NCBI RefSeq assembly: GCF_003574835.2
Contig: NZ_CP063196.1
Coordinates: forward strand, 3,968,001-4,032,000
From: Thermobifida halotolerans
Lineage (GTDB): Bacteria; Actinomycetota; Actinomycetes; Streptosporangiales; Streptosporangiaceae
Reading direction: 5' to 3'
DNA length: 64,000 nucleotides
Part shown: positions 47,088 to 62,012 of the stretch, piece after piece
How positions within the stretch are numbered: position 1 is the stretch's first letter
Layout: every line of letters begins with the position of its first letter
The notes under the pieces: generated by a model
The model's input: only the letters and a program-made list of their open reading frames with translations
The model's database searches: none
Told to the model about the DNA's origin: nothing
Translations under genes and position numbers: made by a program

Positions 47088-50000
47088 TCACGTCCCGGCG
47101 GGCTCCGGAAGGTCCTCTCCGAGGGCGGCGGAGACCACTCTGCGGGTCGTCTCCCGCAGCTCCCGCGGCACCCTGCCCTGTGCCAGACCGTGGTCGGCCA
47201 TGCGTTGCGCGGCCCGCAGGACGTGCCGGGCCTCCAGTTGCTCGCCCAGCCTGCTCAGGATGCGGCCGAGCAGCAGTTGGGTGCGCAGTTGTCCGGAAAG
47301 GTGGTTCAGCTTGGCGTATCCGTCCCAGGCTCGCTCGGCGAACTCCCGGGCCTCGGCGAACCGCCTGATCTCGGTCAGGGTCTCGGCGGCGCGGCGCAGG
47401 GTGCGGGCCTCCCACCAGCCGTCGCCGAGTTCCCGGAAGCCCTCGGCGGCCTCCTCGAACTCCCGGCGGCCGTGGGCGGGGTTCTCCCGCATCCGCTGTT
47501 CGCCCAGGGCGCGCAGGGTCCGCAGCCTGCCCCAGGAGTCCCCGATCCCGGAGAACAGCTCGTGCGCCTGCTCCAGCAGTTCGATGTGGTGGCGCAGGGT
47601 CCACCGCTCGCTGGCCTGACGCACCCGCTCGGCTCGCTCCCGCCACCGGGGCAGCGGTGTGGCGGGCGAGGGCAGACTCACGTAGTCCTCCCACTGCTCC
47701 TCGTCAAGCCACTCCCTGACCTGCGCCAGCCGGTTCTCATACCACTCCTCGGCGATGCGGTGCCCGCGCTCGCGCATCCTCGCTGGGGACCCCAGGCACC
47801 GCTGCCACACGTGGTCCCTGAGCACCTCCTCGCGCTCCCTGCCACGGTCCGGGGAGAGCAGCAGGTCGCACCGCTCGAACTGGTGATGCAGTCTCCGCGG
47901 ATCAAGCTGGCCCAGTTCCCGCAGGCAGCGGGCGCGGTACCACACGGCGCCCTCCGTCTGCTCGGCGTCGGCGAGCAGCGAGTCCAGGGCGATCCAGGCG
48001 CCCAGTTCCCTGCCCATGCGGCCCAGGACCTCGCCCGTCTGCAACCGCACCTTGAGGAGCTGTTTGGCGTCGGCCTCGTCCTGCAGCAGGATGCGGGCGC
48101 CGCGCAGCAGGTCGCGTGCCCGGTGCAGATCCCCCTGGAACCGGTAGAGGTCGGCCTGGTTGCACAGGGTGCGCGCGTACCACCAGTGCTCACCGGCCGC
48201 GGCGAAGATCTGCCCGGCCTCGGCCAGTGCGGTCCGTCCGTCGTCGAGGTCGCCGCGCCGGAGCAGGTTGACGCCGATCACCCGGGACGCGCGGGCCCGC
48301 CAGAGTTCGTTCGCCCTCTTCCTGCCCAACCTCTGCTCGGCCTCGCGGGCCCTGCTCAGCGCCTCGTCGTAGCCGCCCTGGCTGCCCGCGATCTCGGCGA
48401 GGTCCAGCAGCGAGATCGCGTGGGCGAGGTTGTCGCCGAGTTGCCGGGAGAGGGCCAGCGCGGTCTCGGCCGAGGACCGCCAGTCCTCCCAGTAGACCCG
48501 GCCGTTCTGGCACAGCGCGCTGAGCGCACGCGCCAGCCGCCACTCCATGTGCCGGTCGCCGCGCTCCCGCGCCAACTGGACGCAGGCGTGCAGGCACTGG
48601 CGCTCCGCCTCCAACCAGGCCTCCGGATTGCCGGGAGTGCGCAGTTCCAGTCCGTCCGCCGGGGTCAGCGGGGACACGGCGGGCTGGGGGAACCCGCTCT
48701 CCTGCGGGGCGCGTCGGCGGGCGGCGCTCTCGGCGAGCCAGACGTAGGCTCCCAGGAGGCGATCCACGGCTGCGGCGAACCGCCTGTCCGCCCACTCCGC
48801 GCGCTCGTGCCTGGGAACGTCGAGTTGCTCGGGACCGTGGTCGAGCAGAATGCCGCGAACGTGGTCGTGCAGTTGGAAGCGGACGTGGCCGGTGTGGCTG
48901 TCGGGCAGTTGGACCACGAGGTAGCGGTCGGCCATGTCGGTCAACCAGGACCGGACGTCGCGGGTGGCCGCTCCGATGAGCGCCGCCGCGGCCCACGGGG
49001 TGAAGGTGGGCAGCCCGGTGCGCGCGACCCTGACGAGCAGCAGCCGTTCGGTGGCGGAGCACTGCTGGAAGCTGAACCCGAAGGAGGTCGTGATCCCGGC
49101 CGGTCCCAGCAGGGCGCGCTCCTTGTCCCGGCGCATGTACCGCAGCAGGTGCTGGGGGGTGGGGGCGTTGCGGGCGCTGAGCTGGCTGCCGCACCAGCAG
49201 ATGGCGAGCGGCAGCCGGTAGCACTCCCGCACGATGGCGGCCAGGGTCCCCTCGTCCACGGACTCCGCCTCCGGGGCGTCGCCCACCAGGCGGCGCAGCA
49301 GTCGCACGCCCTGCTGCCCGGTGAGCCGGTCGAGCGGGTACTGCCGCACGGTGTAGCCGGTGATTCCGGCGAACGCGTTGCGGCTGGTGATGAGTACGGC
49401 GCTGCCGGTCCCCTTGGGCAGCAGCGGCTCCACCTGCGCGAAGTCCTTGGCGTTGTCCAGCACGAGGAGCAGGCGGAGGTCGCGGGTGAGGGTACGCCAC
49501 TGCTCCCGCAGCTCGTCCAGCGGCAGGTCGGGGTGGGGAGGCGTGCCGATCTTGGCCAGCAGTTGCGCGAGGACCTTCTCCGGGCTCCGGGGGGTGTACC
49601 GCGCCGGAGCGAGCCCCCGCCGCCGCCCGCGCGGTTCGACCGCCTCGCCGTAGAGCTGGAACTCCAGCTTGCCGTCGGGGAAGCGGTCCTCGACCCGGCT
49701 GATCACCTGGTTGGCCAGTTCGGTCTTGCCCACTCCGCCCTCGCCGGTGACCGCGACGACCAGGGGGCCGGTGGCTCCGCGCAGGGCTCGGGGCCGCAGC
49801 CCGGCGCGCCAGCGCGCGCGTCCGCGGGGGAAGCGGCGGAACAGCCGCACGATCTCGTCGAGGGTCTCGGTGTGACCGGTGAAGTGCTCGCTGCGCGGAG
49901 GCAGTTCCTCGCGCATCACGCGGCCGGGGGTGCGGCTCGACCGCCGGGGCACGCCCCCGTCGTCCTCCCAGAAGACCAGGGCGAGTTCGAAGACTGCCGT

Positions 50001-50225
50001 AAGGACCGCGCCCACGAGAGCGAGGCCGAGAGCGAGGAGACCCCACGGTCCGCTTCCCTCGGGGAGCACCTCCCCCAGTCCTCCGAGGGCTCCGGCCGCA
50101 CCGATCACGGCCAGGGGCATCAGACGACGCCAGTGCCGGTTCCTGCCTCGGCTGGAACCGGAAGGGGGCGAAGTGGTGAGGTCCGAACCGGATCTTGCTG
50201 CACTGTCCGACGGGGGATCGTTCAC
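47088..50225 (-). CDS. Membrane-anchored NB-ARC/TPR protein (STAND NTPase)
   Basis: About 1,045 residues. Two N-terminal hydrophobic helices (about 35-53 and 59-85) come before the NTPase, so the protein is likely membrane-tethered. The NB-ARC module (about 110-420) has FTGHTETLDEIVRLF, Walker A GEGGVGKTE (161-169), Walker B LLLVLDNAKD, a sensor AVLITSR and YRLPLAI in place of GLPL. The C-terminal ~600 residues are helical TPR-like repeats. Unlike AfsR there is no DNA-binding or BTAD domain. STAND proteins switch on when ligand binds the repeats; some defend against phage. That role is only a hypothesis here. GTG 50225 is used; TTG 50231 is possible. No effector gene neighbours it. Confidence 0.82.
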   Translation of the reverse strand: MNDPPSDSAARSGSDLTTSPPSGSSRGRNRHWRRLMPLAVIGAAGALGGLGEVLPEGSGPWGLLALGLALVGAVLTAVFELALVFWEDDGGVPRRSSRTPGRVMREELPPRSEHFTGHTETLDEIVRLFRRFPRGRARWRAGLRPRALRGATGPLVVAVTGEGGVGKTELANQVISRVEDRFPDGKLEFQLYGEAVEPRGRRRGLAPARYTPRSPEKVLAQLLAKIGTPPHPDLPLDELREQWRTLTRDLRLLLVLDNAKDFAQVEPLLPKGTGSAVLITSRNAFAGITGYTVRQYPLDRLTGQQGVRLLRRLVGDAPEAESVDEGTLAAIVRECYRLPLAICWCGSQLSARNAPTPQHLLRYMRRDKERALLGPAGITTSFGFSFQQCSATERLLLVRVARTGLPTFTPWAAAALIGAATRDVRSWLTDMADRYLVVQLPDSHTGHVRFQLHDHVRGILLDHGPEQLDVPRHERAEWADRRFAAAVDRLLGAYVWLAESAARRRAPQESGFPQPAVSPLTPADGLELRTPGNPEAWLEAERQCLHACVQLARERGDRHMEWRLARALSALCQNGRVYWEDWRSSAETALALSRQLGDNLAHAISLLDLAEIAGSQGGYDEALSRAREAEQRLGRKRANELWRARASRVIGVNLLRRGDLDDGRTALAEAGQIFAAAGEHWWYARTLCNQADLYRFQGDLHRARDLLRGARILLQDEADAKQLLKVRLQTGEVLGRMGRELGAWIALDSLLADAEQTEGAVWYRARCLRELGQLDPRRLHHQFERCDLLLSPDRGREREEVLRDHVWQRCLGSPARMRERGHRIAEEWYENRLAQVREWLDEEQWEDYVSLPSPATPLPRWRERAERVRQASERWTLRHHIELLEQAHELFSGIGDSWGRLRTLRALGEQRMRENPAHGRREFEEAAEGFRELGDGWWEARTLRRAAETLTEIRRFAEAREFAERAWDGYAKLNHLSGQLRTQLLLGRILSRLGEQLEARHVLRAAQRMADHGLAQGRVPRELRETTRRVVSAALGEDLPEPAGT

Positions 50226-50436
50226 CGACAATCAGAATCCTGTCGCGCCGGGAATCCGTTTTCTCTTCTGCGCTCGTTTGTGACGGGGGTCCCACCAGTG
50301 TTGGCAGAAACCTTCAAAACGTCCACGGCCCGCCACCGAGGGCAAGAACAATTCACGGTTCTTTCATTCGGGTTTCACCGGTTTCCTCCGCCCGACAGCG
50401 CCGACGGGGCTCGGTCACGGGGCGCCCCGCCCCGCT

Positions 50437-51774
50437 TCACGAGGGCACGGATTCGGAGGGGGACGGGCCGCCGTGGTCGTGGACCGCGGGCGTCCCCGGC
50501 TCGTCGGTCCCCTCGCCCACCGCGCCGGACCGGTCCGGTGCCGGGACCACGAGTGTCAGCATCGCGGCGGCCACCGCGATGGCGGCGAAGATCCCGAAGT
50601 TCCACCCCAGGCCGAGCTGGAGCGCGACGATGTAGCCGCCCAGCAGCGGCCCGCAGACTCCCCCGAGCCGCCCCACGCCGGTGGTGTGGCCGAGCGCGGT
50701 GGCCCGGTTCGCCGTCGGGAAGGACAGGGCGACGTAGCCGAACAGCATCATCTGGGTGCCGATGGTCGCCGCTCCGGCGATCGCCACCAGGAGGTAGAGC
50801 ACGGCGGTGGGCAGCGGCAGGCCCAACGCCAGGATGGACGCCGCCGCCACGACGAACGCGCCGGTAGTCGCGGCCCGGGAGCCGAACCGGTCCGCCACCG
50901 AGGAGCCGACCAGGCCGCCCACGACCGCCCCGAAGTTGAGCACCAGCAGGAACGCCATCGCCGGGCCGAGCGCGTACCCCGCGCCCCTCATCAGCTCCGG
51001 CAGCCAGGTGTTGAGCCCGTAGACGAGGAGCATGCTGCAGAAGTTCGCGAGGGCGAACAGGACGATCGCCGCAAGCGCTCTTCCCGAGGTGATCCGGGCA
51101 CGCGGCGCCTCCTGCGGCGGGGTGCCGGGACGCGCACCGCCCTGCCGGGCCCGCCGCTCCCGCAACGTGGCGAAGCCGGGGGACTCGGGCAGGAACCGCA
51201 GCGCCAGTGGGACCACGGTCACCAGGGGGACGCCTCCCAGGGCGAAGAGGACGCGGAAACCGTACTCGGGCAGCAGCCAGACCGCCAGGACCGCGGCGAG
51301 GACCCCGCCGACGGGGAAGCCGGTGAGCATGAGGGCGTTGTAGAAGCTCCGGTGCCGCTCCGGCGCCCATTCCACGGTCAGCGTGATCGCCGTGGGTACG
51401 ACCCCGCCGAAGCCGAGGCCGGCGAGGAAGCGCAGCGCTCCGAGCAGCTCCGGTGAGGGCGCCACCGCCACCAGCAAGGTCGCCACGGAGAACCAGACGA
51501 GGCAGCCGATGAGCGTCCGGCGGCGGCCGATGCGGTCGGTCACCGCACCGACCGCCACCGCGCCGAGGAACATGCCGATCAGCGCGTAGCTTCCGATCAT
51601 CCCGGCCTGCTGGGGGGTCAGCGTCCACTCCGGATGCTCCAGCAGGGCCGGCACGACCGCGCCGTACACGATGAGGTCGTAGCCGTCGAACACGATCGCC
51701 GCGAAGCAGACGGCGACGACAGCGAGACGCGGGGACAGCTTGGGCCGGGAGCCGACTTCTTCGGATGAGGGCAT
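50437..51774 (-). CDS. MFS transporter, aromatic acid:H+ symporter type
   Basis: A 445-residue 12-helix permease. Helix 1 contains the F-D-G-Y-D-L motif and the following loop GAVTDRIGRRRTLI, both characteristic of the AAHS group (PcaK, BenK). These usually import aromatic acids by proton symport, although in a biosynthetic cluster export is conceivable. CAGGAG precedes the ATG at 51774. It is the last gene of the SDR-hydrolase-MFS operon behind a SARP-type promoter at 53584. Confidence 0.88.
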   Translation of the reverse strand: MPSSEEVGSRPKLSPRLAVVAVCFAAIVFDGYDLIVYGAVVPALLEHPEWTLTPQQAGMIGSYALIGMFLGAVAVGAVTDRIGRRRTLIGCLVWFSVATLLVAVAPSPELLGALRFLAGLGFGGVVPTAITLTVEWAPERHRSFYNALMLTGFPVGGVLAAVLAVWLLPEYGFRVLFALGGVPLVTVVPLALRFLPESPGFATLRERRARQGGARPGTPPQEAPRARITSGRALAAIVLFALANFCSMLLVYGLNTWLPELMRGAGYALGPAMAFLLVLNFGAVVGGLVGSSVADRFGSRAATTGAFVVAAASILALGLPLPTAVLYLLVAIAGAATIGTQMMLFGYVALSFPTANRATALGHTTGVGRLGGVCGPLLGGYIVALQLGLGWNFGIFAAIAVAAAMLTLVVPAPDRSGAVGEGTDEPGTPAVHDHGGPSPSESVPS

Positions 51775-51850: not shown

Positions 51851-52678
51851 TCAATCGGCGCCCGTGTCGGGGAGCCGGGAGTCGTCCCTCCCCGACACGG
51901 GCCGGAGGAAGCCGTCCAGGACGCCGAGCACCTCGTCCGCGCTCTCCTCCGCGAGGTTGTGGCCGCCGGGCACCTCGACGTAGCGGGCTCCCGGGATACC
52001 CGCCGCGATCTCGCGGGAGTGACGCGGCGTGGCCAACTGGTCTGCCCTGGCCGCCACGACCAGGGTGGGGACGTCCACCTTGGCCAGGTCGTCTCGTACG
52101 TCCACGCGCTCGACCAGGTCGAGGTGATCGTCGAGCGCCTCGGGAAGCGCCCGGGCCAACTCCTCGGTCCTGGCCCGGACGGCGTCCCGACTCTGGGCGT
52201 TCAGCCGGTCCTCGCCCGTGATCAGCGCCGTGACGAACCGGGCCAGCAGGTCCCGGTCTCCGAGCGCCGCGAGTGCGCGCCACACTCCGACCAGCAGTCG
52301 CAGCCGGGAGTCGGGACGCGCGAAGCCCGCCATGAGGACCAGGGATCTGACGCGCTCCGGATACCGGACCGCCAGCCGCACCGAGACCGGGCAGCCCAGC
52401 GAGTAGGCCACCACGGAGAAGGTGTGGACTCCGGCGTCCGCCGCGGTCGCCACCAGGCGGTCCGCCAGGTCGTCCAGGTCCAGCGGCTCGGTCTGCCTGG
52501 GGGTCGCGCCCACGCCCGGGTAGTGGGGGAGCACCACGGTGAACCGCCTCGACAGCGGACCGATGAAGGGAGCGAAGTCGACGGTGCCGCCCCCGCCCCC
52601 GTGCGCGAGCAGGAGGCCGGGTCCCCCGCCCCGGACGACGGTGGAGAGGGGGCCGCGACCGGTGTCGGGGACCGTCAT
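51851..52678 (-). CDS. Alpha/beta-hydrolase
   Basis: A 275-residue alpha/beta-hydrolase. The oxyanion region is LLAHGGGGGTVDF, the nucleophile elbow AYSLGC (Ser about residue 122, with Ala instead of the first Gly of GxSxG), the acid in VVAARADQLATP and the base in GGHNLAEE. There is no signal peptide. It could be an esterase, lactonase or thioesterase-like tailoring enzyme. GAGAGGAG precedes the ATG at 52678. It lies between the SDR and the AAHS-type MFS gene in one operon of the SARP-controlled cluster. Confidence 0.87.
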   Translation of the reverse strand: MTVPDTGRGPLSTVVRGGGPGLLLAHGGGGGTVDFAPFIGPLSRRFTVVLPHYPGVGATPRQTEPLDLDDLADRLVATAADAGVHTFSVVAYSLGCPVSVRLAVRYPERVRSLVLMAGFARPDSRLRLLVGVWRALAALGDRDLLARFVTALITGEDRLNAQSRDAVRARTEELARALPEALDDHLDLVERVDVRDDLAKVDVPTLVVAARADQLATPRHSREIAAGIPGARYVEVPGGHNLAEESADEVLGVLDGFLRPVSGRDDSRLPDTGAD

Positions 52679-52735: not shown

Positions 52736-53473
52736 TCAGGCCAACCCGCCCGAGACCCCGATGGTCTGTCCGGTGATCCACCGCGCGTCGTCGCTGGCGA
52801 GGAAGGCCACGACGTCGGCGATGTCCTCCGGACGGCCCATGCGGCCCAGCGGCGTCATGGCGATGACCCCGTCGGCGTTGGCGCGGATGTCCGGCCGCAC
52901 TCCCTCGGTGTCGGTGAGTCCGGGCAGGACCGAGTTGACGGTGACCTGGCGCGGGCCCAACTCCTTGGCCAGGGAGAAGCCCATCTGCTCGACGGCGGCC
53001 TTGGTTCCCGCGTAGACCCCGGTGAACGGGAGCGTGACCCGAGTGTTGCCGGTGGAGATGTTGATGATGCGCCCACCGTCGCTGACCATGTTCGCCGCGT
53101 GCTTGAGGGCGAGGAAGGTGCCCTTGAAGTTGACCGCCACGGCCCGGTCAAACTCGTCCTCGTCGATCTGGGCGATGGGGCCGATGATGTTGACGCCGAC
53201 GTTGTTGACAACCACGTCGATGCCGCCGAACGTGTTCTTGGCCTCCTTGAACAGCCGCTCGATGTCGGCCGGGACACCCATGTCCGCCTGGACGGCCACG
53301 GCGGTCCCGCCCTCTGAGGTGATCTCCTGGACCAGCTCCTCGGCGGCCTCGGCGTTGCTGTGCCAGTTGATGGCGACGCTGGCCCCGTCGGCCGCCAGCC
53401 GCTTGGAGATCGCGCGGCCGATACCGCGCGATCCCGCGGTGACAACGGCCTTCTTCCCTTCCAGGGTGGTCAT
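52736..53473 (-). CDS. Short-chain dehydrogenase/reductase (cluster tailoring enzyme)
   Basis: A 245-residue SDR. It has TAGSRGIGRA for NADP binding (10-19; the Arg favours NADPH), NNVGVN in place of NNAG, catalytic Ser in NISTGN, and YAGTKAA for Tyr/Lys. The C-terminus ARWITGQTIGVSGGLA is typical of 3-oxoacyl-ACP-reductase-like SDRs. Likely a ketoreductase acting on the cluster's product. It is the first gene after the SARP-type promoter whose repeats lie at 53601-53627, 128 bp upstream of its ATG. Confidence 0.88.
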   Translation of the reverse strand: MTTLEGKKAVVTAGSRGIGRAISKRLAADGASVAINWHSNAEAAEELVQEITSEGGTAVAVQADMGVPADIERLFKEAKNTFGGIDVVVNNVGVNIIGPIAQIDEDEFDRAVAVNFKGTFLALKHAANMVSDGGRIINISTGNTRVTLPFTGVYAGTKAAVEQMGFSLAKELGPRQVTVNSVLPGLTDTEGVRPDIRANADGVIAMTPLGRMGRPEDIADVVAFLASDDARWITGQTIGVSGGLA

Positions 53474-53583
53474 GTGCTGCTCCCATCCTCCGGCCAGTGC
53501 AGCTGGCCCTCAACGTGGAACGACTTCTCCGAACCGCCGGGCAGCGGGAAGCGCCCCGCTCCCGTCCGCGGCCTCTCTCCTGG

Positions 53584-53627
53584 AGTCTCGCCCTCCGCAC
53601 CCAAGAACCGACCAAGGACCGACCAAC
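53584..53627 (-). promoter_or_regulatory. SARP-type promoter of the SDR-hydrolase-MFS operon
   Basis: On the plus strand CCAAG/CCAAG/CCAAC begin at 53601, 53612 and 53623, exactly 11 bp apart (CTTGG repeats leftward). Eleven bases beyond the last lies GAGACT (53584-53589) as a -10. Direct repeats at 11-bp spacing close to the -10 are the known binding pattern of SARP activators. Confidence 0.7.
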
Positions 53628-53643
53628 GCGGTCCGGCCCCGCG

Positions 53644-55266
53644 TCAGGGCAGCCGGACCGACTGGGCGTGCCGGAACACGTTGCCCGGGTCCCAGTGGGC
53701 CTTGACCTTTTGCAGGCGGGAGTAGTTGTGCGCGTAGTAGAGCTCGTGCCAGGGGGAGTCGGACCTGTTCCAGTCGGGGTCGCCGAGGTCCACGTCCGGG
53801 TATCCGATGTAGCAGCCGTCGGTCACCTCGCCGGACACGGGCACGCCGCCCGTCGCCGAGTAGACGTCCGAATAGAACTCCCGCACCCAGGCGATGTTGC
53901 GGTCGTCCTCGTCCGGCGCAGCCCACAGGGAGACGTACTGGAGTTTCATGACGGAGTCGCGGGCGGCGACGGCGGTGGCGTCCGGGGCGACCGAGTTGAT
54001 CCTCCCCCCGTAGGAGGAGATGAGGAGAAGCGCGTTCGAATTCGGGTAGTCGGATCGGGTGAGGTTCCGGTAGACGGCCGCCACCTGGTCGTCGGGGAAG
54101 TTCCCGCGCATGTGCGCCGACTTGATCTTGAACCGCATGACGGTCGGGTCGGAGGGGTTGAACCCCTGCCAGTGCAGCGCGTGGTGCCAGGGCAGTCGGC
54201 GCGGGGGCGCCCCCTGGTAGGCGACGCCCACCCCGTCGTTGACCTCGGCGATGAAGTCCTCCAGCAACTGCTGGGCGTTGTCGGCGGTAGCGTCGATCTG
54301 CGTCGCCATGGCGACCACCCCGGCCGCCCGGTTGAGCAGTTTGAGCTGGCTGAAGAGACCCGCGTACGGCGAGCCCGGGTCGCTGTTGCGCTCGTGCCAA
54401 CCGCCGAAGTTGCGCACCAGCCTGCCGAACGCCTCCTGGGTCAACTCGCTCCACGGCCAGACGATCGAGCTGACCAGGACCTCGGAGGGCGGGCGGGGGA
54501 GCAGGTCGGAGGGCTCGTTTCCCCGCGCCTCGGGCGAGCGGAGCAGGTAGCGGGTGACGATCCCGAAGTTCCCGCCACCCCCGCCTGTGTGGGCCCACCA
54601 CAGGTCCTGCTTCTTGCCTCTGGAGTCGCGGGTGGCGACGGTGACCTTCGCCCTCCCGTCGCGGCCGACCGTGACGACCTCCACCCCGTGCAGGTGGTCC
54701 ACGGTCAGCCCGTGCAGTCGGGCCAGGGGGCCGTAACCGCCGCCGATGATGTGGCCCCCCGCACCGACCGTGGGACACGATCCGCCGGGGACGGTGACCC
54801 CCCAGCGCTTGAACAGCGACTCGTAGACGTCGAGCAGGGACGCTCCCGCCTCGACCGCGAACGCCCTGTGCTGGTGGTCGTAGTAGACCGACGACATCTG
54901 GGAGACGTCGATCACGGCCTGGACCTCGGGATCGCTCACGAAGTTCTCGTAGCAGTGGCCGCCGCTGCGCACCGCGATCCGCTTCCCGTCCCGCAGCGCC
55001 CGGTCCACGGCGGCCACGACCTGCTCCGTGGTGCCGATCACCTGGATGTAGTCGGGCTTTCCGATGAATCTCTGGTTGGCTCCGCTGCTGAGGTCCACGT
55101 ACCGGACGTCGCCGGATCTGACCGTCACCGGTCCGAACTCCGGTGGGCAGGCGTCCTGTGTATACGCGATCGCCACACCGGTTCCGGAGTCGGGCGCGCC
55201 GATCAGCGCCGCTCCGCCAAGAACGGCCGCCCCCGTGAAGAATCCCCGACGTGTCGCAGCTCCCAT
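53644..55266 (-). CDS. Secreted FAD-dependent oxidase, berberine-bridge type
   Basis: A 540-residue oxidase with a twin-arginine signal (ATRRGFFTG, then a hydrophobic stretch to about 35). The FAD domain carries H104 in SGGHCYE and C164 in GGSCPTVGAGG, the two residues that bind FAD covalently (8-alpha-His and 6-S-Cys) in this family. The BBE C-terminal signature is present (NYSRLQKVKAHWDPGNVFRH). Relatives include aclacinomycin oxidoreductase and other antibiotic tailoring oxidases. GGAGATG precedes the ATG at 55266. A SARP-type repeat promoter lies about 80-120 bp upstream. Oxidation of the cluster product after Tat export is plausible. Confidence 0.9.
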   Translation of the reverse strand: MGAATRRGFFTGAAVLGGAALIGAPDSGTGVAIAYTQDACPPEFGPVTVRSGDVRYVDLSSGANQRFIGKPDYIQVIGTTEQVVAAVDRALRDGKRIAVRSGGHCYENFVSDPEVQAVIDVSQMSSVYYDHQHRAFAVEAGASLLDVYESLFKRWGVTVPGGSCPTVGAGGHIIGGGYGPLARLHGLTVDHLHGVEVVTVGRDGRAKVTVATRDSRGKKQDLWWAHTGGGGGNFGIVTRYLLRSPEARGNEPSDLLPRPPSEVLVSSIVWPWSELTQEAFGRLVRNFGGWHERNSDPGSPYAGLFSQLKLLNRAAGVVAMATQIDATADNAQQLLEDFIAEVNDGVGVAYQGAPPRRLPWHHALHWQGFNPSDPTVMRFKIKSAHMRGNFPDDQVAAVYRNLTRSDYPNSNALLLISSYGGRINSVAPDATAVAARDSVMKLQYVSLWAAPDEDDRNIAWVREFYSDVYSATGGVPVSGEVTDGCYIGYPDVDLGDPDWNRSDSPWHELYYAHNYSRLQKVKAHWDPGNVFRHAQSVRLP

Positions 55267-55344
55267 TGCTTTTCATCTCCACTGTGGAAACTATTCAACG
55301 GGCGCCTGACATACCGCCGCCCGCTTCTCTGAATCGACGGATCG

Positions 55345-55388
55345 AATATCTCAGGAAGCGGCCAAAGAATAGTCAAGAGACAGCCAAG
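55345..55388 (-). promoter_or_regulatory. SARP-type promoter of the flavin oxidase
   Basis: Plus-strand CCAAA, TCAAG and CCAAG begin at 55362, 55373 and 55384 (11-bp steps). Leftward, 11 bases beyond them, lies GATATT (55345-55350) as -10. Confidence 0.65.
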
Positions 55389-55452
55389 GAAACCAGAATC
55401 TCGATCACCGGGCGGAGCAATCTGATAACGCAGAGAAATTAAAGTGATTTCC

Positions 55453-56442
55453 TCAGCGATTTTCCCAGGAATCGCTCGGGCCGAACCTCCGGGCGTCGGT
55501 GAACCGTTCGTAAGGCATTCCGTCGGGCATGTTCAGCACCTCCATCTGGAATCCCGACGGGGCCTTGAAGTAGACCCAGTAGTCCCCGTGGATGGGGCCG
55601 CCGTCCTGGATCAACTGGGGCTCGCCGAGGACCTCGACCCCGGGGACCGTCCGCAGCCAGGCCACTGCCGCGTCCACGTCGTCGACGAAGAAGGCGAGGT
55701 GGTGGCCACCGACGTCGCTGTTGCGCGGCCGTTCGGTCCGCTGGTCGGAGACGGTGTACTGGGCGAGTTCCACGTTGGTGACCGGACCGAGCCGCACGAC
55801 CGCGGTCTCCACCTCGACGGCCTGGTCGATCGCGAACTGCCGCGAGGCGTAGTCGGCGTCGAACCGGAGACTCTCCCGGTAGAGCACCTCGCCGCCCAGG
55901 ACGTTGACGTGGAAGGCGACGGCCTCCGCCAGGTCCGCCACGGTGTAGCCCGCCTGCAGGACGCCGCGCGCCCCCGGAACGCCGTGCTTGCCGGGGCCCC
56001 ACCAGCCCGGTTCGGGGCGGTACAGCCGTTCCTCCCCCGCGGCCTCGAAGGGCAGCACGTCGGGTACCTGTCGCAGTTCCAACTGCATCCCCCACGGCGC
56101 CTGGAAGTAGATCCACCGGCACCCCGCCGCCGGGCCCTCCTTGACTTCCTGCGGCTCACCCTGCACCCGCGCCCCGTCCACGGAGCGCAGATACTCCAGC
56201 GCCCGGTCGAAGTCCTCGGTGTCCACGGTCAGCCGGTGGCCGCCGACGTCGCTGTTGCGCGGCGGTTCGGTCCGCTGGTCGGGGGAGGTGTACTGGAACA
56301 GTTCCAGGTTGGCTGTCGGCCCGAACCGCAGCAGCGCGATGTCGGTCGCGGCGCGGGGATGGACGTCCAGGTGCCGCGTCATCCAGTCGCCGTCGGGGTC
56401 CGAGACGCCTTCGAGCGTGTAGAGCAGGTCCGCTCCGAGCAC
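55453..56442 (-). CDS. Two-domain VOC (glyoxalase-fold) protein, 5' end lost
   Basis: About 330 residues with two vicinal-oxygen-chelate domains, roughly 1-125 and 155-300. Each shows the pattern ...D-V-G-G-H-(R/H)-L followed by GxxxxYF(Q/K)AP-x-G-x-Q-(L/M)E. Such proteins act as dioxygenases, isomerases or antibiotic-binding proteins. The homologous reading begins [18 protein letters not shown] at 56481, directly next to a polyketide synthase fragment, and an in-frame TGA precedes it. The native start and first strand are missing, leaving GTG 56442 as the first possible start. It may be made by reinitiation, or not at all. Confidence 0.6.
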
Positions 56443-56485
56443 GTCCCGGAAGAAGTCGACCGCCTGGCGGAGGTCGGGGACCGTT

Positions 56486-56815
56486 CACCTCCAGCAGCAG
56501 TCGCTGCTGGGGGTCCATGAGCTCGGCCTCCCTCGGGGTGATGCCGAAGAAGGCGGCGTCGAATCCGGCCGCGTCGGGCAGGAAGCCGCCGTAGCGGGTG
56601 ACGTCGCGCATCGCCGCGGCGTTCTCCGGGTTGGACCTCAGGTAGGAGTCCCAGCGCCCGTCGGGAACCTCCACGATTCCGTCGGCGCCGTCCAGCAGGA
56701 ATTTCCAGAGTTCCTCCGGCGAGTCGACCCCGCCGGGGAAGCGGCATCCCATGCCTACTATCGCGATCGGCTCCACGCCTTCCCGCACGTTGTTCTCCTC
56801 TTCTCTGACGGACAT
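56486..56815 (-). pseudogene. 5' fragment of a type I polyketide synthase (ketosynthase)
   Basis: From the ATG at 56815, after GGAGGAA, about 110 codons read as the start of a beta-ketoacyl synthase: [49 protein letters not shown] and [10 protein letters not shown]. The sequence then changes abruptly into a VOC gene in another frame. Everything after the first part of the KS domain, including the catalytic Cys, is gone. The style (DGRWDSY, ENAAAMR) resembles iterative aromatic type I synthases, which is an impression only. A SARP-type promoter remains upstream. Confidence 0.85.
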
Positions 56816-56997
56816 CCGATCCGTTCCTCCGGTGGGAACGGGAAAGCTTTTCGCACCGTTCGGGTGCTGCGTCAGGAACGGCCGGACCCGCCGCACCGGC
56901 GCCGGTTCACGTCCAGGAAACAATCAGGTCAGTTCGGTGCTTCGGGAACAGAGTTCCGCGAGGAGGCGGCCGGGGGCCGCCATCTGTTCCGCTTCTG

Positions 56998-57041
56998 AGT
57001 TTTACACCGGGAAATCAAGAACCGACCAAGATCAAACCAAG
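56998..57041 (-). promoter_or_regulatory. SARP-type promoter of the PKS fragment
   Basis: Plus-strand TCAAG, CCAAG and CCAAG begin at 57015, 57026 and 57037, 11 bp apart. Leftward, 11 bases on, AAAACT (56998-57003) serves as -10. The rest of the gap 56816-57198 holds the ~180-nt untranslated leader and, on the other side, the 3' end of the MFS transcript; no gene is seen in it. Confidence 0.65.
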
Positions 57042-57198
57042 CCGATAAATGGCATCGGAATGCCGGGTGACCGCACTGTTCAGCTCCCGGAGCCGGGGAA
57101 AAACAATTCCGGACAGCCGAAAGCCGCCGGGGTCTGCTGTTTCCCCGGCGGCTGGAGGCTGTGGGTCGGGTGGGCGTCAGCGTGGCGCGGCGGGCCGG

Positions 57199-58389
57199 TC
57201 ACGGTGCGGGAGTCTGCGCCGCTCCCCGTGGGGCGGCGGGGCTCCCGGCCCGGTCGCGCGCCAGCTCGCGGAGGCTGACCAGGAATCCCAGCAGGGCGAC
57301 GGCGGCGCCCGCGACGATGACGGTCCGCAGTCCCCGGCCTCCGTCCAGTACCGCTCCGCCGAGCCAGGCGCCGAAGGCGATGCCGATGTTCATCGCGGAG
57401 ATGTTCACCGCGACCGCGAGCGTCGGAGCGCCGGATCCGGTGGACTGGAGGATCCGGGCCTGGAGTCCGGGCAGGATCGCGCCGAACGCGGCACCGAAGA
57501 CGAGCACTCCGCCGACCGCGGCCCACCCCACCGAGACGGCCAGGGCGAACGCGGCGAGCACCACGGTGAGCACGCCCAGCAGCCCCGACAGCGAGGGCAT
57601 CAGCGCGCGGTCGGTGAGGCGTCCCCCGAGCAGGCTGCCCGCGAACGTGCCGAGCCCGAAGAGCAGCAGCAGCCAGGTGACCGCGCCCGGGGAGAATCCG
57701 CTGACCTCGGTCAGCACCGGCGAGATGAACGTGTACGCGGTGAAGACCCCCGCGCAGCCCAGCGCGCTCATCACGACCGCCATCTGCACCCGGCGCACGC
57801 CGAGGACCTTCAGTTCGGCCAGGGCACCCGCCCGGACGTCACCGCGGACCGACGGGATCGCGACGAGGAGCAGCAGGGTGGCGGCCGCGCCGCACAGGGC
57901 GACCGTCCAGAACGTGGCGCGCCAGCCGTACTCGCTGCCGACCAGCGTGCCCAGCGGCACGCCGAGGATGTTGGCGAGGTTGAGGCCGATGGCCAGGTGG
58001 GCGATGGCCGCTCCCTGCCGGTCCTCGGGGACGAGCCGGACGGCGACGACGATGCACAGGGCGAAGAAGGTGCAGTGGGTGAGCGCGCCGAGCATCCTGG
58101 CCGCCATGAGCACCCCGTAGTCGGGAGCGGCCGCCGCCACGACGTTGCTCGCCGTGAAGACCGCCATGAGTGTCGCCATCAGGGGCTTGCGGGGGACGCG
58201 GGTGGTCGCCAGGGTGATCAGCGGCCCCCCGATCATGACGGCGACCGCGTAGCCGCTGACGAGCAGTCCCGCCGCAGGGAGGGACACGTCGAGGTCGGCC
58301 GCGATCCCGGGCAGGATCCCGGCGATGACGAACTCTGCGCTGCCCACGCTGAACAGGCAGAGCATCAGCACGAGAACGGGACGAGACAT
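57199..58389 (-). CDS. MFS drug-efflux transporter (DHA1 type)
   Basis: A 396-residue 12-helix permease of the DHA1 group (AraJ/PbuE/chloramphenicol-exporter-like). Visible features are SVGSAEFVIAGILPGIA in helix 1 and TRVPRKPLM as a reduced loop 2-3 motif. The C-terminal halves GRLTDRALMPSL and NISAMNIGIAFGAWLG are typical. It starts 61 bp after the quinone oxidoreductase stop in the same direction and shares its SARP-type promoter. Export of, or resistance to, the cluster product is likely. Confidence 0.88.
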   Translation of the reverse strand: MSRPVLVLMLCLFSVGSAEFVIAGILPGIAADLDVSLPAAGLLVSGYAVAVMIGGPLITLATTRVPRKPLMATLMAVFTASNVVAAAAPDYGVLMAARMLGALTHCTFFALCIVVAVRLVPEDRQGAAIAHLAIGLNLANILGVPLGTLVGSEYGWRATFWTVALCGAAATLLLLVAIPSVRGDVRAGALAELKVLGVRRVQMAVVMSALGCAGVFTAYTFISPVLTEVSGFSPGAVTWLLLLFGLGTFAGSLLGGRLTDRALMPSLSGLLGVLTVVLAAFALAVSVGWAAVGGVLVFGAAFGAILPGLQARILQSTGSGAPTLAVAVNISAMNIGIAFGAWLGGAVLDGGRGLRTVIVAGAAVALLGFLVSLRELARDRAGSPAAPRGAAQTPAP

Positions 58390-58450
58390 GGGTTCCCAAC
58401 CGTGAGAAGGGGGTTCGCAGGACGCGTGGGCGCGGTGGGGCGGGCGGCCG

Positions 58451-59356
58451 TCACGGGGTGACGAGCAGTTTGCCCCTGGTGCCGCCGGCCGCCATTCTGC
58501 GGTGCGCCTCGGGGGCCCGCTCGTAGTCGAAGACCTCCGCGACCCGCAGCGTGAGGACTCCCTGCTCGACCAGCCGCGCCAGGTCGGCCAGTCCGGCTCC
58601 GTCCTGCTCGACGAAGGACATCCGGACCTCGATCCCCCGTTCGGGTTCGGGCTTGGCCGACGGGACGATGGACACGGCCCGACCGCCGTCGCGCACGGCG
58701 CTGATCGCCTCGGGGACCCCGGCGGTCTCCAGAAGCAGGTCGCAGGCTGCCGTGGGAAGGCTCGCCCCGTCCGTCGCCACCTGCTTGGCGCCCAACTCGT
58801 GGGCCAGCGCCGTGTCCTGGGGGCGCACGTAGGCGACGACCTCGATCCCGCGGGCCGTGGCGAGCTGTACGGCGTATCCGCCGACCGCGCCCACCGCCCC
58901 GGTGACCAGGAGCGTCTGACCGGGGCTCGGGTCCAGTACCGCCAGCGCCTGCGCGGCGGTGAGTCCCGCCAGCGGCAGGGCCGCGGCGCCGCGCAGGCTG
59001 ACTCCGCGGGGCGCGTGCGCCGCGATCGCCTCGTCGAGCGCGACCAGTTCCGCGTGGGTGCCGACTCCGGTCGCCATCTGGGCCGACATGGCGATGACGC
59101 GGTCGCCGACGGCGAAGCGGGACACGCCCGGTCCGGTCTCGACCACCTCTCCCGACAGGTCCCAGCCGAGGATCATCGGGAAGGAGGCCGAGACGTTGGC
59201 CGCGGCGCTGCCCGAGCGGACCTCCAGGTCGACCGGGTTGACCGCGGAGGCGGCGGCACGCACCAGGATCTGTCCGGGGCCGGGCCGGGGATCGGGCAGC
59301 TGCGCGGTCCGCAGCCGCTCGGGTCCGCCGTACCCCTCCAGTATCACTGCCCGCAT
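58451..59356 (-). CDS. Zinc-independent quinone oxidoreductase-like enzyme (MDR family)
   Basis: A 301-residue medium-chain dehydrogenase/reductase. The GroES-like domain is at 1-120 (AVNPVDLEVRSG, GWDLSGEVVETGPG, GDRVIA) and the Rossmann domain includes LVTGAVGAVGGYAVQLATARG. The catalytic-zinc cysteine and structural zinc cluster are absent, fitting NADPH:quinone or enoyl reductases. It may reduce an enone or quinone in the product pathway. The ATG at 59356 was chosen over an in-frame upstream ATG because MRAVILEGYG is the usual beginning. SARP repeats at 59413-59428 lie 57 bp upstream. Confidence 0.88.
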   Translation of the reverse strand: MRAVILEGYGGPERLRTAQLPDPRPGPGQILVRAAASAVNPVDLEVRSGSAAANVSASFPMILGWDLSGEVVETGPGVSRFAVGDRVIAMSAQMATGVGTHAELVALDEAIAAHAPRGVSLRGAAALPLAGLTAAQALAVLDPSPGQTLLVTGAVGAVGGYAVQLATARGIEVVAYVRPQDTALAHELGAKQVATDGASLPTAACDLLLETAGVPEAISAVRDGGRAVSIVPSAKPEPERGIEVRMSFVEQDGAGLADLARLVEQGVLTLRVAEVFDYERAPEAHRRMAAGGTRGKLLVTP

Positions 59357-59395
59357 CCGTGCTGCTCCTTCCCCGAGTGGCATGGGATCACGGGG

Positions 59396-59428
59396 AGCAT
59401 CGCAGGGCGCGGCCAAGAGCCGACCAAG
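59396..59428 (-). promoter_or_regulatory. SARP-type promoter of the oxidoreductase-MFS operon
   Basis: Plus-strand CCAAG begins at 59413 and 59424 (11 bp apart). Leftward, 11 bases on, GATGCT (59396-59401) forms the -10. A third copy is not clear. Confidence 0.6.
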
Positions 59429-59474: not shown

Positions 59475-61364
59475 TCAGGACGCGACGTACTGCTCGGTGC
59501 TGCCGGACGGGGCGGCGCCCCGGTCCTTCAGCAGCGCCTCCAGCGCGGCGGGGACGGGTTCGTCCCCGAGCTCGTCGACGTACAGGCGGACCAGTTCGGG
59601 AAAGCGGAACCACAGCCGCCCGTCGCCGACGTCGCTGGTGACCCGCAGCAGGTGGGCGTTGACCAGTTCGGCCGTCGGGCACTCCGCGGTGAGCGGGTCC
59701 GTGCCGAGGGCGGCGGCCGCGGTCGTGAGGTTGAACCTTCCCGACCCGATGGCGCACAGTCTGCGTAGCGCCCAGCGGTAGTGCGGGGCCAGCCGCCGGT
59801 AGGCGCGGGCGAAGCACGTGCGGATGTCCAGTGTCCCCGTACGCAGTTCGTCCAGTCGGCGGTCCTCGTCCAGGAGCCGGATGGCAAACCCCTTGATGCT
59901 CCACGGCGGTCGGGCCGCCAGTTTCTCGCCCGCCGCGCGGACCGCCAGGGGCAGCCGTTCGCACAGTCGGACGACCTGGAGGGCCGACTCCGTCTCCCGC
60001 TCCACCCGGTCCCTACCGACCACGTTCACGAGCAGTTGGAGTCCCTCCTGGTCCGTGAAGGGTTCGAGTTCGAGGATGTCCACACCGGGCAGGCCGGGGA
60101 GCCCCTCCTGGGCGGTGATCAGGACGGCGCACTCGGCCCCGCCCGGCAGGAGGGGGACAGTCTGCTCCACGGACACGGCGTCGTCGAGCACGACGAGCAC
60201 CCGTCTCTCCGCCGCCCAACTGCGGAACGCCCGCATCCGGTCGTGCAGGTTGCGGGGCAGGTGCTCGGGGTCGCAGCCGAGGGAGACGAGGAAGGAGCCG
60301 AGGATCTCCTCGGCGGCGACGGGCGCTCCGTCACGGCTCCGCAGCGTCGCGAACAACTGGCCGTCGACGAAGTGCTCGCGCATCCGCTGCCCGGCTCGCA
60401 CGGCCAGGGTCGTCTTGCCGACGCCGGGCTGTCCGGTCACCACGACGACGGGGGCTGCCGTCCCCGTGTCGGGGCCGTTGGCGCGAGTCGCCGCGTCGAT
60501 GGCCTTCAGTTCCGCCTCACGGCCCACGAAGTCGCGGATGTCCCGCGGCAGTTGGGCGGGAACGTTGGAGGCGGGACGGCGCGGAGTGGCGAACGCGGTG
60601 GTCGAGGGCAGCTCCAGCTCGTCGGCCTCGCCGCGCATTACGCTCTGGTGCAGCCGCTGCAGCCGCTCCGAGGGGTCGAGTCCGAGCTCCTCGACCATTC
60701 TCCGCCGCAGCCGCTGGTAGACCCGCAGCGCCTCGTTGCGGTCCCCGGAGCGGGAGAGCGCCACCATGAGCTGGGCGTGGAACCCCTCGTGCAGCGGGTG
60801 CTCGGCGGTGAGCGTGTTGAGCTCGCCGATCAGGTCGCGGTGCTCGCCCAGGTGCAGGGAGAGCTCGACGCGCTGCTCCAGGACCCGCAGCCGGGTCTCC
60901 TCCAGGTGGGCGATCCGCGCCGCCAGGCGCGCTCCCGGGAGCAGGTCGGACAGGGCCGGTCCGCGCCACAGGGAGAGCGCGGAGCGGAACTCCTCGGCGG
61001 CCCGGGGGGCGTTGTCGAGCCGCAGCGCCTCCTTGGCCGCGGCGGCTCTCGCCTCGAACTCCCACAGGTCCAGCTCACCGGACTCCAGGCGGATCAGGTA
61101 GCCGCGGCGGCACGTCTCGACCACCGGTCTGGTCTCGCGGCTGTTGAGTTCCTTGCGGAGCTGGTAGACGTACGTCTGCACGGTCTTCCTGGCCAGCTTC
61201 GGCGGGTTGTCCTCCCACAGTTCCTCGATGATCGCGTCGGTCGACACCGGTCTGTTCGGGTTGCACAGGAGCATCGCAAGCACCCGCCGGGGCATCGGCG
61301 CGGACAGCTCCCTCTTGGCACAGCCGTCTCGGATCTCCAGCGGCCCCAAGATGTCGAAGCGCAT
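59475..61364 (-). CDS. SARP-family pathway activator with NB-ARC domain (AfsR-like)
   Basis: A 629-residue regulator. The winged-helix DNA-binding domain covers 1-95 (MRFDILGPLEIRD, KTVQTYVYQLRKEL, RRGYLI) and the BTAD domain about 98-245 (ELDLWEFEARAAAAKEALRL, GEHRDLIGELNTLTAEHPLHEGFHAQLMVAL). The NB-ARC ATPase follows, with FVGREAEL, Walker A GQPGVGKTT (near 315), Walker B VLVVLDDA and ERLPLAV. TPR repeats of AfsR are missing, so it is an intermediate-length SARP. GAGGAGAGG precedes the ATG. As the only SARP beside four repeat-bearing promoters it is the probable activator of the cluster. Confidence 0.9.
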   Translation of the reverse strand: MRFDILGPLEIRDGCAKRELSAPMPRRVLAMLLCNPNRPVSTDAIIEELWEDNPPKLARKTVQTYVYQLRKELNSRETRPVVETCRRGYLIRLESGELDLWEFEARAAAAKEALRLDNAPRAAEEFRSALSLWRGPALSDLLPGARLAARIAHLEETRLRVLEQRVELSLHLGEHRDLIGELNTLTAEHPLHEGFHAQLMVALSRSGDRNEALRVYQRLRRRMVEELGLDPSERLQRLHQSVMRGEADELELPSTTAFATPRRPASNVPAQLPRDIRDFVGREAELKAIDAATRANGPDTGTAAPVVVVTGQPGVGKTTLAVRAGQRMREHFVDGQLFATLRSRDGAPVAAEEILGSFLVSLGCDPEHLPRNLHDRMRAFRSWAAERRVLVVLDDAVSVEQTVPLLPGGAECAVLITAQEGLPGLPGVDILELEPFTDQEGLQLLVNVVGRDRVERETESALQVVRLCERLPLAVRAAGEKLAARPPWSIKGFAIRLLDEDRRLDELRTGTLDIRTCFARAYRRLAPHYRWALRRLCAIGSGRFNLTTAAAALGTDPLTAECPTAELVNAHLLRVTSDVGDGRLWFRFPELVRLYVDELGDEPVPAALEALLKDRGAAPSGSTEQYVAS

Positions 61365-62012
61365 GTTCCTCTCCTCATCCTCCTGCTGTCTTGGCGGTCA
61401 TGCGTACACCGGGCGCCGCCGACAAAGTGATCAAAAACTCGACGGTTGAAAAATGGACATCTAACGCGGCGCGGCATGCCGGACTGAACGTTCGGTGGTG
61501 ACACCGACAGGAAAACCAAATGAGACATGCCAGAAATCCGCGTCGCCACTTCTGGCATTCACCTGGAATCCCGTTGGACAAGTCCAAGAAGACTACTCAC
61601 AGTGGCAGTACCACGTGAAACCGATGATCTTCGGGGGAAACATTCCCCCGAAGCGGGCGCCGCACGCACGCCACCGGGACTTCCTGGGAAATCCGCAGGT
61701 CACTCGATACCCGCCGACGGACTTCCGGGAACCCTCTCCAAGCTTGCGGCTTTGCCTTCGCTACAGGAGACCACAGACCCGTCCCACAAAAAAGGGTTGG
61801 CATAATCCGGCCATTACCCACTGGCAGTGGATTCTGATACTGTCTGATTACAGAAAGTAATTACCGCAGTTCTTCGAAGACCGGCGGAACGCGGTTCCGC
61901 CGCACGGGCAACGTGGGACGGATCGTGTGTTCTATATCACAAGTCAGTGCCGTCATTTCCCGGGATCCGCCCCGCACAGGACGCGGCGGCCGGCCGACCG
62001 CCCCCGACAACG
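61365..62012. other. AT-rich gene-free region upstream of the SARP gene
   Basis: About 650 bp without a convincing gene. The stretch 61430-61960 is clearly richer in A and T than the rest of the window, as in SARP promoter regions or recently acquired DNA. It has the palindrome CCACTGGCAGTGG (61818-61830) and a hairpin GGCGGAAC/GTTCCGCC (61883-61901). Short open frames on the plus strand show no recognisable protein or ribosome-binding site. Confidence 0.45.

Follow-up and report, generated by a model that had tools for sequence, protein, structure and literature searches.

Locus and repeat arrays

The stretch analysed here, called the window throughout, comprises 64,000 nucleotides of Thermobifida halotolerans (contig NZ_CP063196.1, positions 3,968,001 to 4,032,000) and carries a gene cluster adjoining a regulator of the SARP (Streptomyces antibiotic regulatory protein) family. 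Four arrays of two or three CTTGG-like pentamers, candidate operators of that SARP, stand upstream of the cluster genes. A sequence-only reading of the window had listed the four arrays with their 11-bp steps, placed each of them 5' of a transcription unit of the cluster adjoining an AfsR-like SARP, and pointed to a hexamer with A at position 2 and T at position 6 (A2/T6) 11 nucleotides past the last repeat of every array. All coordinates and hexamers were confirmed on the sequence, as were the SARP domains and the location of the arrays upstream of cluster genes.

53584..53627, minus strand (read from 53627 to 53584): array 1, GTTGG-CTTGG-CTTGG, N11, GAGACT; hexamer 53584-53589, predicted +1 near 53577; 5' of the short-chain dehydrogenase (SDR), alpha/beta hydrolase and MFS genes
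55345..55388, minus strand (read from 55388 to 55345): array 2, CTTGG-CTTGA-TTTGG, N11, GATATT; hexamer 55345-55350, predicted +1 near 55338; 5' of the BBE-type FAD oxidase gene
56998..57041, minus strand (read from 57041 to 56998): array 3, CTTGG-CTTGG-CTTGA, N11, AAAACT; hexamer 56998-57003, predicted +1 near 56991; 5' of the ketosynthase (KS) remnant and VOC gene
59396..59428, minus strand (read from 59428 to 59396): array 4, two repeats, CTTGG-CTTGG, N11, GATGCT; hexamer 59396-59401, predicted +1 near 59389; 5' of the ADH and MFS genes
59475..61364, minus strand: SARP activator, 629 aa; Pfam Trans_reg_C (winged helix) at residues 26-89 (2.2e-11), BTAD at 98-242 (2.5e-44) and NB-ARC (7.2e-11)

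The cluster genes are encoded on the minus strand, and the arrays read CTTGG on this same strand; their distance to the 3' end of the SARP gene ranges from 0.05 to 5.9 kb. Arrays 1-3 have three repeats and array 4 has two, with a step of 11 bp, one helical turn, throughout; seven of the 11 pentamers are exact CTTGG and four carry one mismatch. The start codons 3' of the arrays are those of the SDR (53473), the BBE-type oxidase (55266), the KS remnant (56815) and the ADH (59356).

The regulator has the domain order of its family, an N-terminal OmpR-type winged helix followed by BTAD, and Pfam found no TPR domain in it, which makes it a medium-sized SARP. AfsR structures match the protein, chain 8k60 covering residues 1-601 (E 7.9e-95). 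In the 700-bp gap 5' of its gene, an inverted repeat at 61629-61653 (CTTCGGGGG/CCCCCGAAG, with a 7-base loop and without a T run) is a possible regulatory site.

Rarity of the repeat pattern

A genome-wide search (5.5 Mb) for the exact pair CTTGG-N6-CTTGG returned three places, each inside the 6-kb stretch of the cluster, and 12 for a reversed control pattern. The sequence-only reading had proposed a genome-wide search for triples and had held that many unrelated ones would speak against a SARP regulon; with up to two mismatches, triples were found in only six places, five in the cluster (two of them overlapping on array 4) and one elsewhere, an outcome that leaves the regulon reading standing. 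Within the window, triples of this stringency whose second or third pentamer is exact number three at a spacing of 11 (arrays 1, 3 and 4, array 2 being excluded by this filter), one at a spacing of 9 and none at 14 other spacings, and the same count in 100 random Markov sequences had a mean of 0.03 and a maximum of 1.

Exact triples were also sought in 341 genomes of the family, where 34 genomes have one each and the window's own genome has none. These were considered as SARP promoters and rejected, because an A2/T6 hexamer at N11 accompanies none of the 30 inspected.

Loose patterns behave differently, and it is from them that the idea of a chance alignment of CTTGG words, picked by eye, draws its force. 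With up to three mismatches, triples are noise (50 places genome-wide versus 218 for the control), and pairs with up to two mismatches number 48 in the window where 46.2 are expected, so that the pair is informative only at high stringency; neither loose pattern was used as evidence. The uniqueness of the arrays at high stringency, the hexamer that sets them apart from the inspected exact triples of the family and their conservation across genera, described below, make such an accident extremely improbable.

One genus of the collection (g18, L009-L015) has an exact CTTGG triple at 11 bp in all seven of its genomes, at locus position ~1501-1527 and without an A2/T6 hexamer at N11. In L010, the genome of this genus whose open reading frames (ORFs) were read, the triple lies just 3' of an ORF that appears TPR-like by eye. 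This conserved triple is a different conserved element.

Conservation at orthologous promoters

A single scan of the genome collection yielded 17 loci with SARP relatives, and the closest relatives found, at 48% identity, belong to Antribacter soli and Promicromonospora iranensis. Each of these two loci contains one CTTGG triple (up to two mismatches, 11 bp) in 22 kb; the other 15 loci of the scan contain none by the same measure. Two of the three exact pairs in the Antribacter genome and two of the six in Promicromonospora fall inside the SARP cluster, 12-13 kb apart.

At orthologous promoters, arrays precede the SDR gene in all three genomes, the polyketide synthase (PKS) or KS gene likewise in all three, and the BBE gene in two, the window and Antribacter. 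The counterpart of array 2 before the Antribacter BBE gene is weaker, with 12 of 15 repeat bases, and its choice took the hexamer into account, unlike the listing of the relatives' four other arrays. No array was seen at the Promicromonospora BBE promoter.

One alternative is that no dedicated activator reads the repeats and that common descent alone has kept them, as -35 elements of the usual kind or as promoter debris. The -35 consensus is TTGACA, and TTGG does resemble its beginning. Exact 11-bp steps are difficult to reconcile with this explanation, as is the pattern of divergence when promoters are aligned without gaps (flanks of 60 bases upstream and 40 downstream). The SDR promoters of the window and Antribacter agree at 15/15 repeat and 6/6 hexamer bases, whereas their spacers are 39%, their upstream flanks 35% and their downstream flanks 20% identical. 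Across the three window/Antribacter pairs together, repeats are 80-100% identical and spacers and flanks 17-45%. The Promicromonospora SDR promoter has 14/15 repeat bases in common with that of the window, and the PKS promoters of the two relatives share 13/15 and 12/15 with the KS promoter of the window. A2 and T6 are retained in all seven orthologous promoter pairs. Between distant genera, the repeats and two key -10 bases have been held and the remaining promoter sequence has drifted, and -35 elements or debris are a very unlikely account of the arrays. The arrays are present, unique in their genome at high stringency and kept at orthologous promoters in two other genera.

The SDR promoters also bear on where transcription would begin. 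In Promicromonospora the promoter reads GAAACT-GGGGCC-ATG, placing the ATG six bases past the hexamer, at the expected +1, and the first 20 residues translated from this ATG are the N-terminus of the Antribacter SDR. The Promicromonospora SDR transcript is therefore predicted to be leaderless and to start at the expected +1, which lends the start sites predicted from the hexamers indirect support. The Antribacter gene has this start codon 88 nt past its hexamer, behind a purine-rich stretch.

Association with one SARP clade

Motif models were built from all nine arrays (R1), from the five arrays of the relatives only (R2) and from the four of the window only (R3), and each was used to score only the 150 best first-look candidates of every genome. 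R1 places the four window arrays on top in the genome (E 1e-6 to 2e-4, next 0.11); since it was built from those arrays, the split models were relied on instead. R2 ranks array 1 first (E 0.007) and array 4 second (E 0.08) in the whole genome of the window, and R3 puts the SDR array on top in both relatives with weak scores (E 0.1 and 0.3), a recovery of two of four window arrays and two of five in the relatives. R1 also gave weak matches, at E 0.003 and 0.015, in two same-genus genomes; with stricter filters, it recovered nothing beyond the two known clusters from 150 genomes of the Promicromonospora family.

Besides the window SARP itself, its own family supplied 24 SARP matches (40-46% identity), of which 18 were examined. 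No CTTGG triple with up to two mismatches was found in these 18 loci, in one same-genus locus (L166) or in five BBE regions from four genomes, and altogether the motif is lacking in the 34 further SARP loci that were examined over 11-22 kb each. A tree of 30 SARPs groups the three proteins with the motif as one clade (support 100/99). A reference-free screen for self-similar xTTxx triples with a hexamer, applied to 41 sequences (L052 left out), returned eight matches at spacing 11, four at spacing 12 and none at six others; those at spacing 11 are five CTTGG arrays together with L144, L145 and L148, and array 2 fails the screen. Among the SARPs examined, the arrays are restricted to one clade.

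This restriction is relevant to whether the arrays are bound by a different protein, either another OmpR/PhoP-type winged-helix regulator or a second SARP encoded elsewhere. PhoP boxes are GTTCA-type 11-bp repeats found at many genome loci. Their geometry is alike, and at the afsS promoter PhoP competes with AfsR, binding across the AfsR site (PMC10972967). The window repeats differ from the PhoP box in sequence, and their exact pairs are confined to the cluster, whereas a PhoP regulon is expected at many loci. At first look the genome offered 42 SARP-like candidates for a second SARP; at E<=1e-100 the window SARP is matched by a single genome protein. The motif and the SARP clade also occur together in three genera, and a regulator other than the cluster SARP is considered improbable.

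Cluster genes and the ketosynthase remnant

The genes behind the arrays are listed below in the order of transcription.

58451..59356, minus strand: ADH / quinone-oxidoreductase-like gene; Pfam ADH_N and ADH_zinc_N_2 on the longer ORF 58451-59416; start picked by GGAAGGAG upstream of ATG 59356
57199..58389, minus strand: MFS transporter; 57-60% identity to the MFS proteins of both relatives
56156..56815, minus strand: KS remnant, the N-terminal part of a polyketide synthase ketosynthase (~110 residues) followed by an unrelated tail to residue 219; Pfam ketoacyl-synt at residues 15-110 (3.4e-31), profile positions 2-96 of 252
55453..56442, minus strand: VOC (glyoxalase-fold) protein; Pfam Glyoxalase_4 1.5e-15; its open frame and that of the KS remnant overlap, in different frames
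53644..55266, minus strand: BBE-type FAD oxidase; 57-58% identity in both relatives
52736..53473, minus strand: SDR; 68-71% identity in both relatives
51851..52678, minus strand: alpha/beta hydrolase; 57-bp gap to the SDR, with which it is probably co-transcribed
50437..51774, minus strand: MFS transporter; 76-bp gap; probably the last gene of the array-1 operon

The longer ORF 58451-59416 reaches into array 4 solely by way of a long TTG start. Adjoining the cluster is an NB-ARC and TPR protein of 1047 aa (47088-50231, minus strand), which resembles a large SARP reduced to its C-terminal half, with the DNA-binding part missing, and is 26-34% identical to the NB-ARC regions of the relatives' SARPs.

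In the relatives the cluster is fuller. That of Promicromonospora (L086 11777-20009 and L087 1110-2138) encodes a PKS with KS-AT-DH-KR-ACP domains, a DHB-AMP-ligase-like enzyme, an AroB-like cyclase, KAS III, BBE, a phosphopantetheinyl transferase, SDR, MFS and HAD proteins and an ADH_N protein. The cluster of Antribacter (L083-L084) has PKS, AroB-like, KAS III, BBE, MFS, HAD and ADH_N genes by Pfam and an SDR gene by tblastn. At E<=1e-10, tblastn matched neither the ADH nor the VOC protein nor the alpha/beta hydrolase of the window in the regions of the relatives. Judged by its enzymes, the fuller cluster looks like an aryl-polyketide/cyclitol pathway.

Residues 20-112 of the Promicromonospora PKS have a 62% identical counterpart in the KS remnant, and no further part of that protein was found within the 64-kb window. 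The remnant stops short of the ketosynthase active-site cysteine, and the gene behind array 3 is, by its sequence, no longer a working synthase. The remnant ends at a 10-residue motif and runs into the VOC gene in another frame; the PKS gene is long and intact-looking in both relatives. This junction is either a deletion/fusion remnant or a sequencing frame break.

Proposed mechanism of activation

The four arrays are very probably operators of the cluster SARP (59475-61364), which would activate four transcription units by recruiting RNA polymerase. This agrees with the SARP regulon proposed by the sequence-only reading, which gains support from the identity of the SARP, the operator rule discussed below, the co-occurrence of arrays and SARP clade in two other genera and the lack of arrays in the 34 other SARP loci. 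In this mechanism, two or three SARP protomers would bind head to tail on the same face of the helix, one per TTGG half-site. Like AfsR at afsS, they would stand in for the -35 element, hold region 4 of the sigma factor and bring the housekeeping polymerase to the -10 hexamer, which lies 11 nt further downstream. The units switched on would be SDR-hydrolase-MFS, the BBE oxidase, the KS remnant with VOC, and ADH-MFS. Binding by the window SARP, activation, the start sites and the extents of the operons are what we infer here.

The DNA-contacting residues of AfsR are kept in part. Highly conserved among SARPs are, in AfsR numbering, Q48, W74, P79, T88, R94 and K95 (PMC10936776). Five of the six are present in the window SARP (W74, P79, T88, R94 and K95), and Q48 is replaced by M, as it is in both motif-bearing relatives. 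The less conserved AfsR contacts R87, S91 and R92 are Q, Y and Q.

Several observations weigh against the proposal. T88, which in AfsR contacts G-36 of the template strand, would meet a C here, and together with the four replaced residues this means that AfsR recognition is not simply transferable. No array was seen in the upstream region of the SARP gene itself. Arrays 2 and 3 are absent from the 14 matches of the relatives-only model in the window genome, and the window-only model misses the other three arrays of the relatives. The KS/PKS hexamers share A2 and T6 with the window but only one of the four other bases. The Antribacter and Promicromonospora spacers are 57% (SDR) and 70% (PKS) identical, so the two genera are not fully independent. 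Finally, with the ADH unmatched by tblastn in the relatives' regions, array 4 has no orthologous promoter to be compared with.

A broader interpretation, which we hold tentatively and regard as rather less likely to be right than wrong, is that the SARPs of the window, Antribacter and Promicromonospora constitute a separate TTGG-reading specificity class, and that the window regulon outlived its biosynthetic core, the SARP now running a repurposed tailoring and export set. If so, all four operators were kept, including one before a PKS gene cut to ~110 codons that are unable to act as a ketosynthase. The general picture of SARP function is unchanged by these results. They add a candidate SARP half-site that was not found described in the open-access literature, tie a motif to one SARP clade and predict exact start sites for four promoters, providing a search pattern for related polyketide clusters and a clean case for how the SARP recognition helix sets sequence specificity.

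Comparison with known SARP systems

Operators of SARPs are direct repeats 11 or 22 bp apart, the 3' repeat lying 8 bp from the -10 element (PMC10936776, PMC4393881, PMC7040171). Direct repeats at 11 bp are found in the four window arrays and in five of the two relatives, and all four window arrays precede genes of the cluster next to the SARP gene. With the half-sites framed as TTGGNNN heptamers, the last repeat ends 8 bp before the A2/T6 hexamer in 9/9 aligned arrays; the frame was set by alignment to T-27 of AfsR, and the window hexamers were those of the sequence-only reading.

A close parallel is the AfsR box at afsS of Streptomyces coelicolor. In the AfsR complex the afs box extends from -40 to -19, the upstream repeat taking up -40 to -30, and binding is prevented when T-38 or T-27 is changed (PMC10936776). 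If the hexamer is assumed to occupy -12 to -7, as is usual, the last window repeat becomes C-28 T-27 T-26 G-25 G-24. Both systems thus have 11-bp repeats overlapping the -35 region in the same register to the -10, with T at -27 and -38, and both regulators combine a winged helix with BTAD and an NB-ARC-type ATPase. The clear base change is at -25, which is G here and C or T in the AfsR box. AfsR further differs in its half-site, CGTT(T/C)ATCGNN (PMC10972967) compared to CTTGG, in having a TPR domain, in being a global regulator and in its base-contacting R92, which is Q in the window SARP.

Other SARPs share the spacing and differ in the sequence they read. The DnrI half-site is TCAAG. If the printed PimR site runs in the direction of pimM, the CAAG of CCAAG would presumably lie on the opposite strand to the PimR site. 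PimR binds three heptamers with 4-bp spacers, which amount to 11-bp steps, and SanG and PolR bind two; their half-site is CGGCAAG, and the PimR operator does not overlap the -35 region (PMC3367932, PMC5930380). OtcR (oxyI repeat CGGTCGAAG), PapR2 (GTCAGSS) and act-type regulators (TCGAG) follow the same rule of 11-bp repeats placed 8 bp from the -10, and none of these half-sites, as given in the papers cited, contains the TTGG of the window arrays (PMC4393881, PMC7040171). The medium-sized SARPs FdmR, BafG and Fzm_SARP (the last 665 aa) have the same winged helix, BTAD and NTPase and belong to other clusters; the Fzm_SARP motifs are described as similar to the RedD and PapR ones (PMC12692060).

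The consensus of SARP half-sites varies by regulator (PMC3367932), and TTGG matches none of the described types TCGAG, TTCA, GGCAAG and GTCAG, although this is not a defining feature. No SARP with CTTGG or CCAAG repeats was found in the open-access literature, incompletely covered and hence a weak negative, in agreement with the sequence-only reading, which had connected this repeat with no described SARP. Set beside these systems, the architecture of the window arrays is canonical, and it is the TTGG half-site that is apparently new in specificity.

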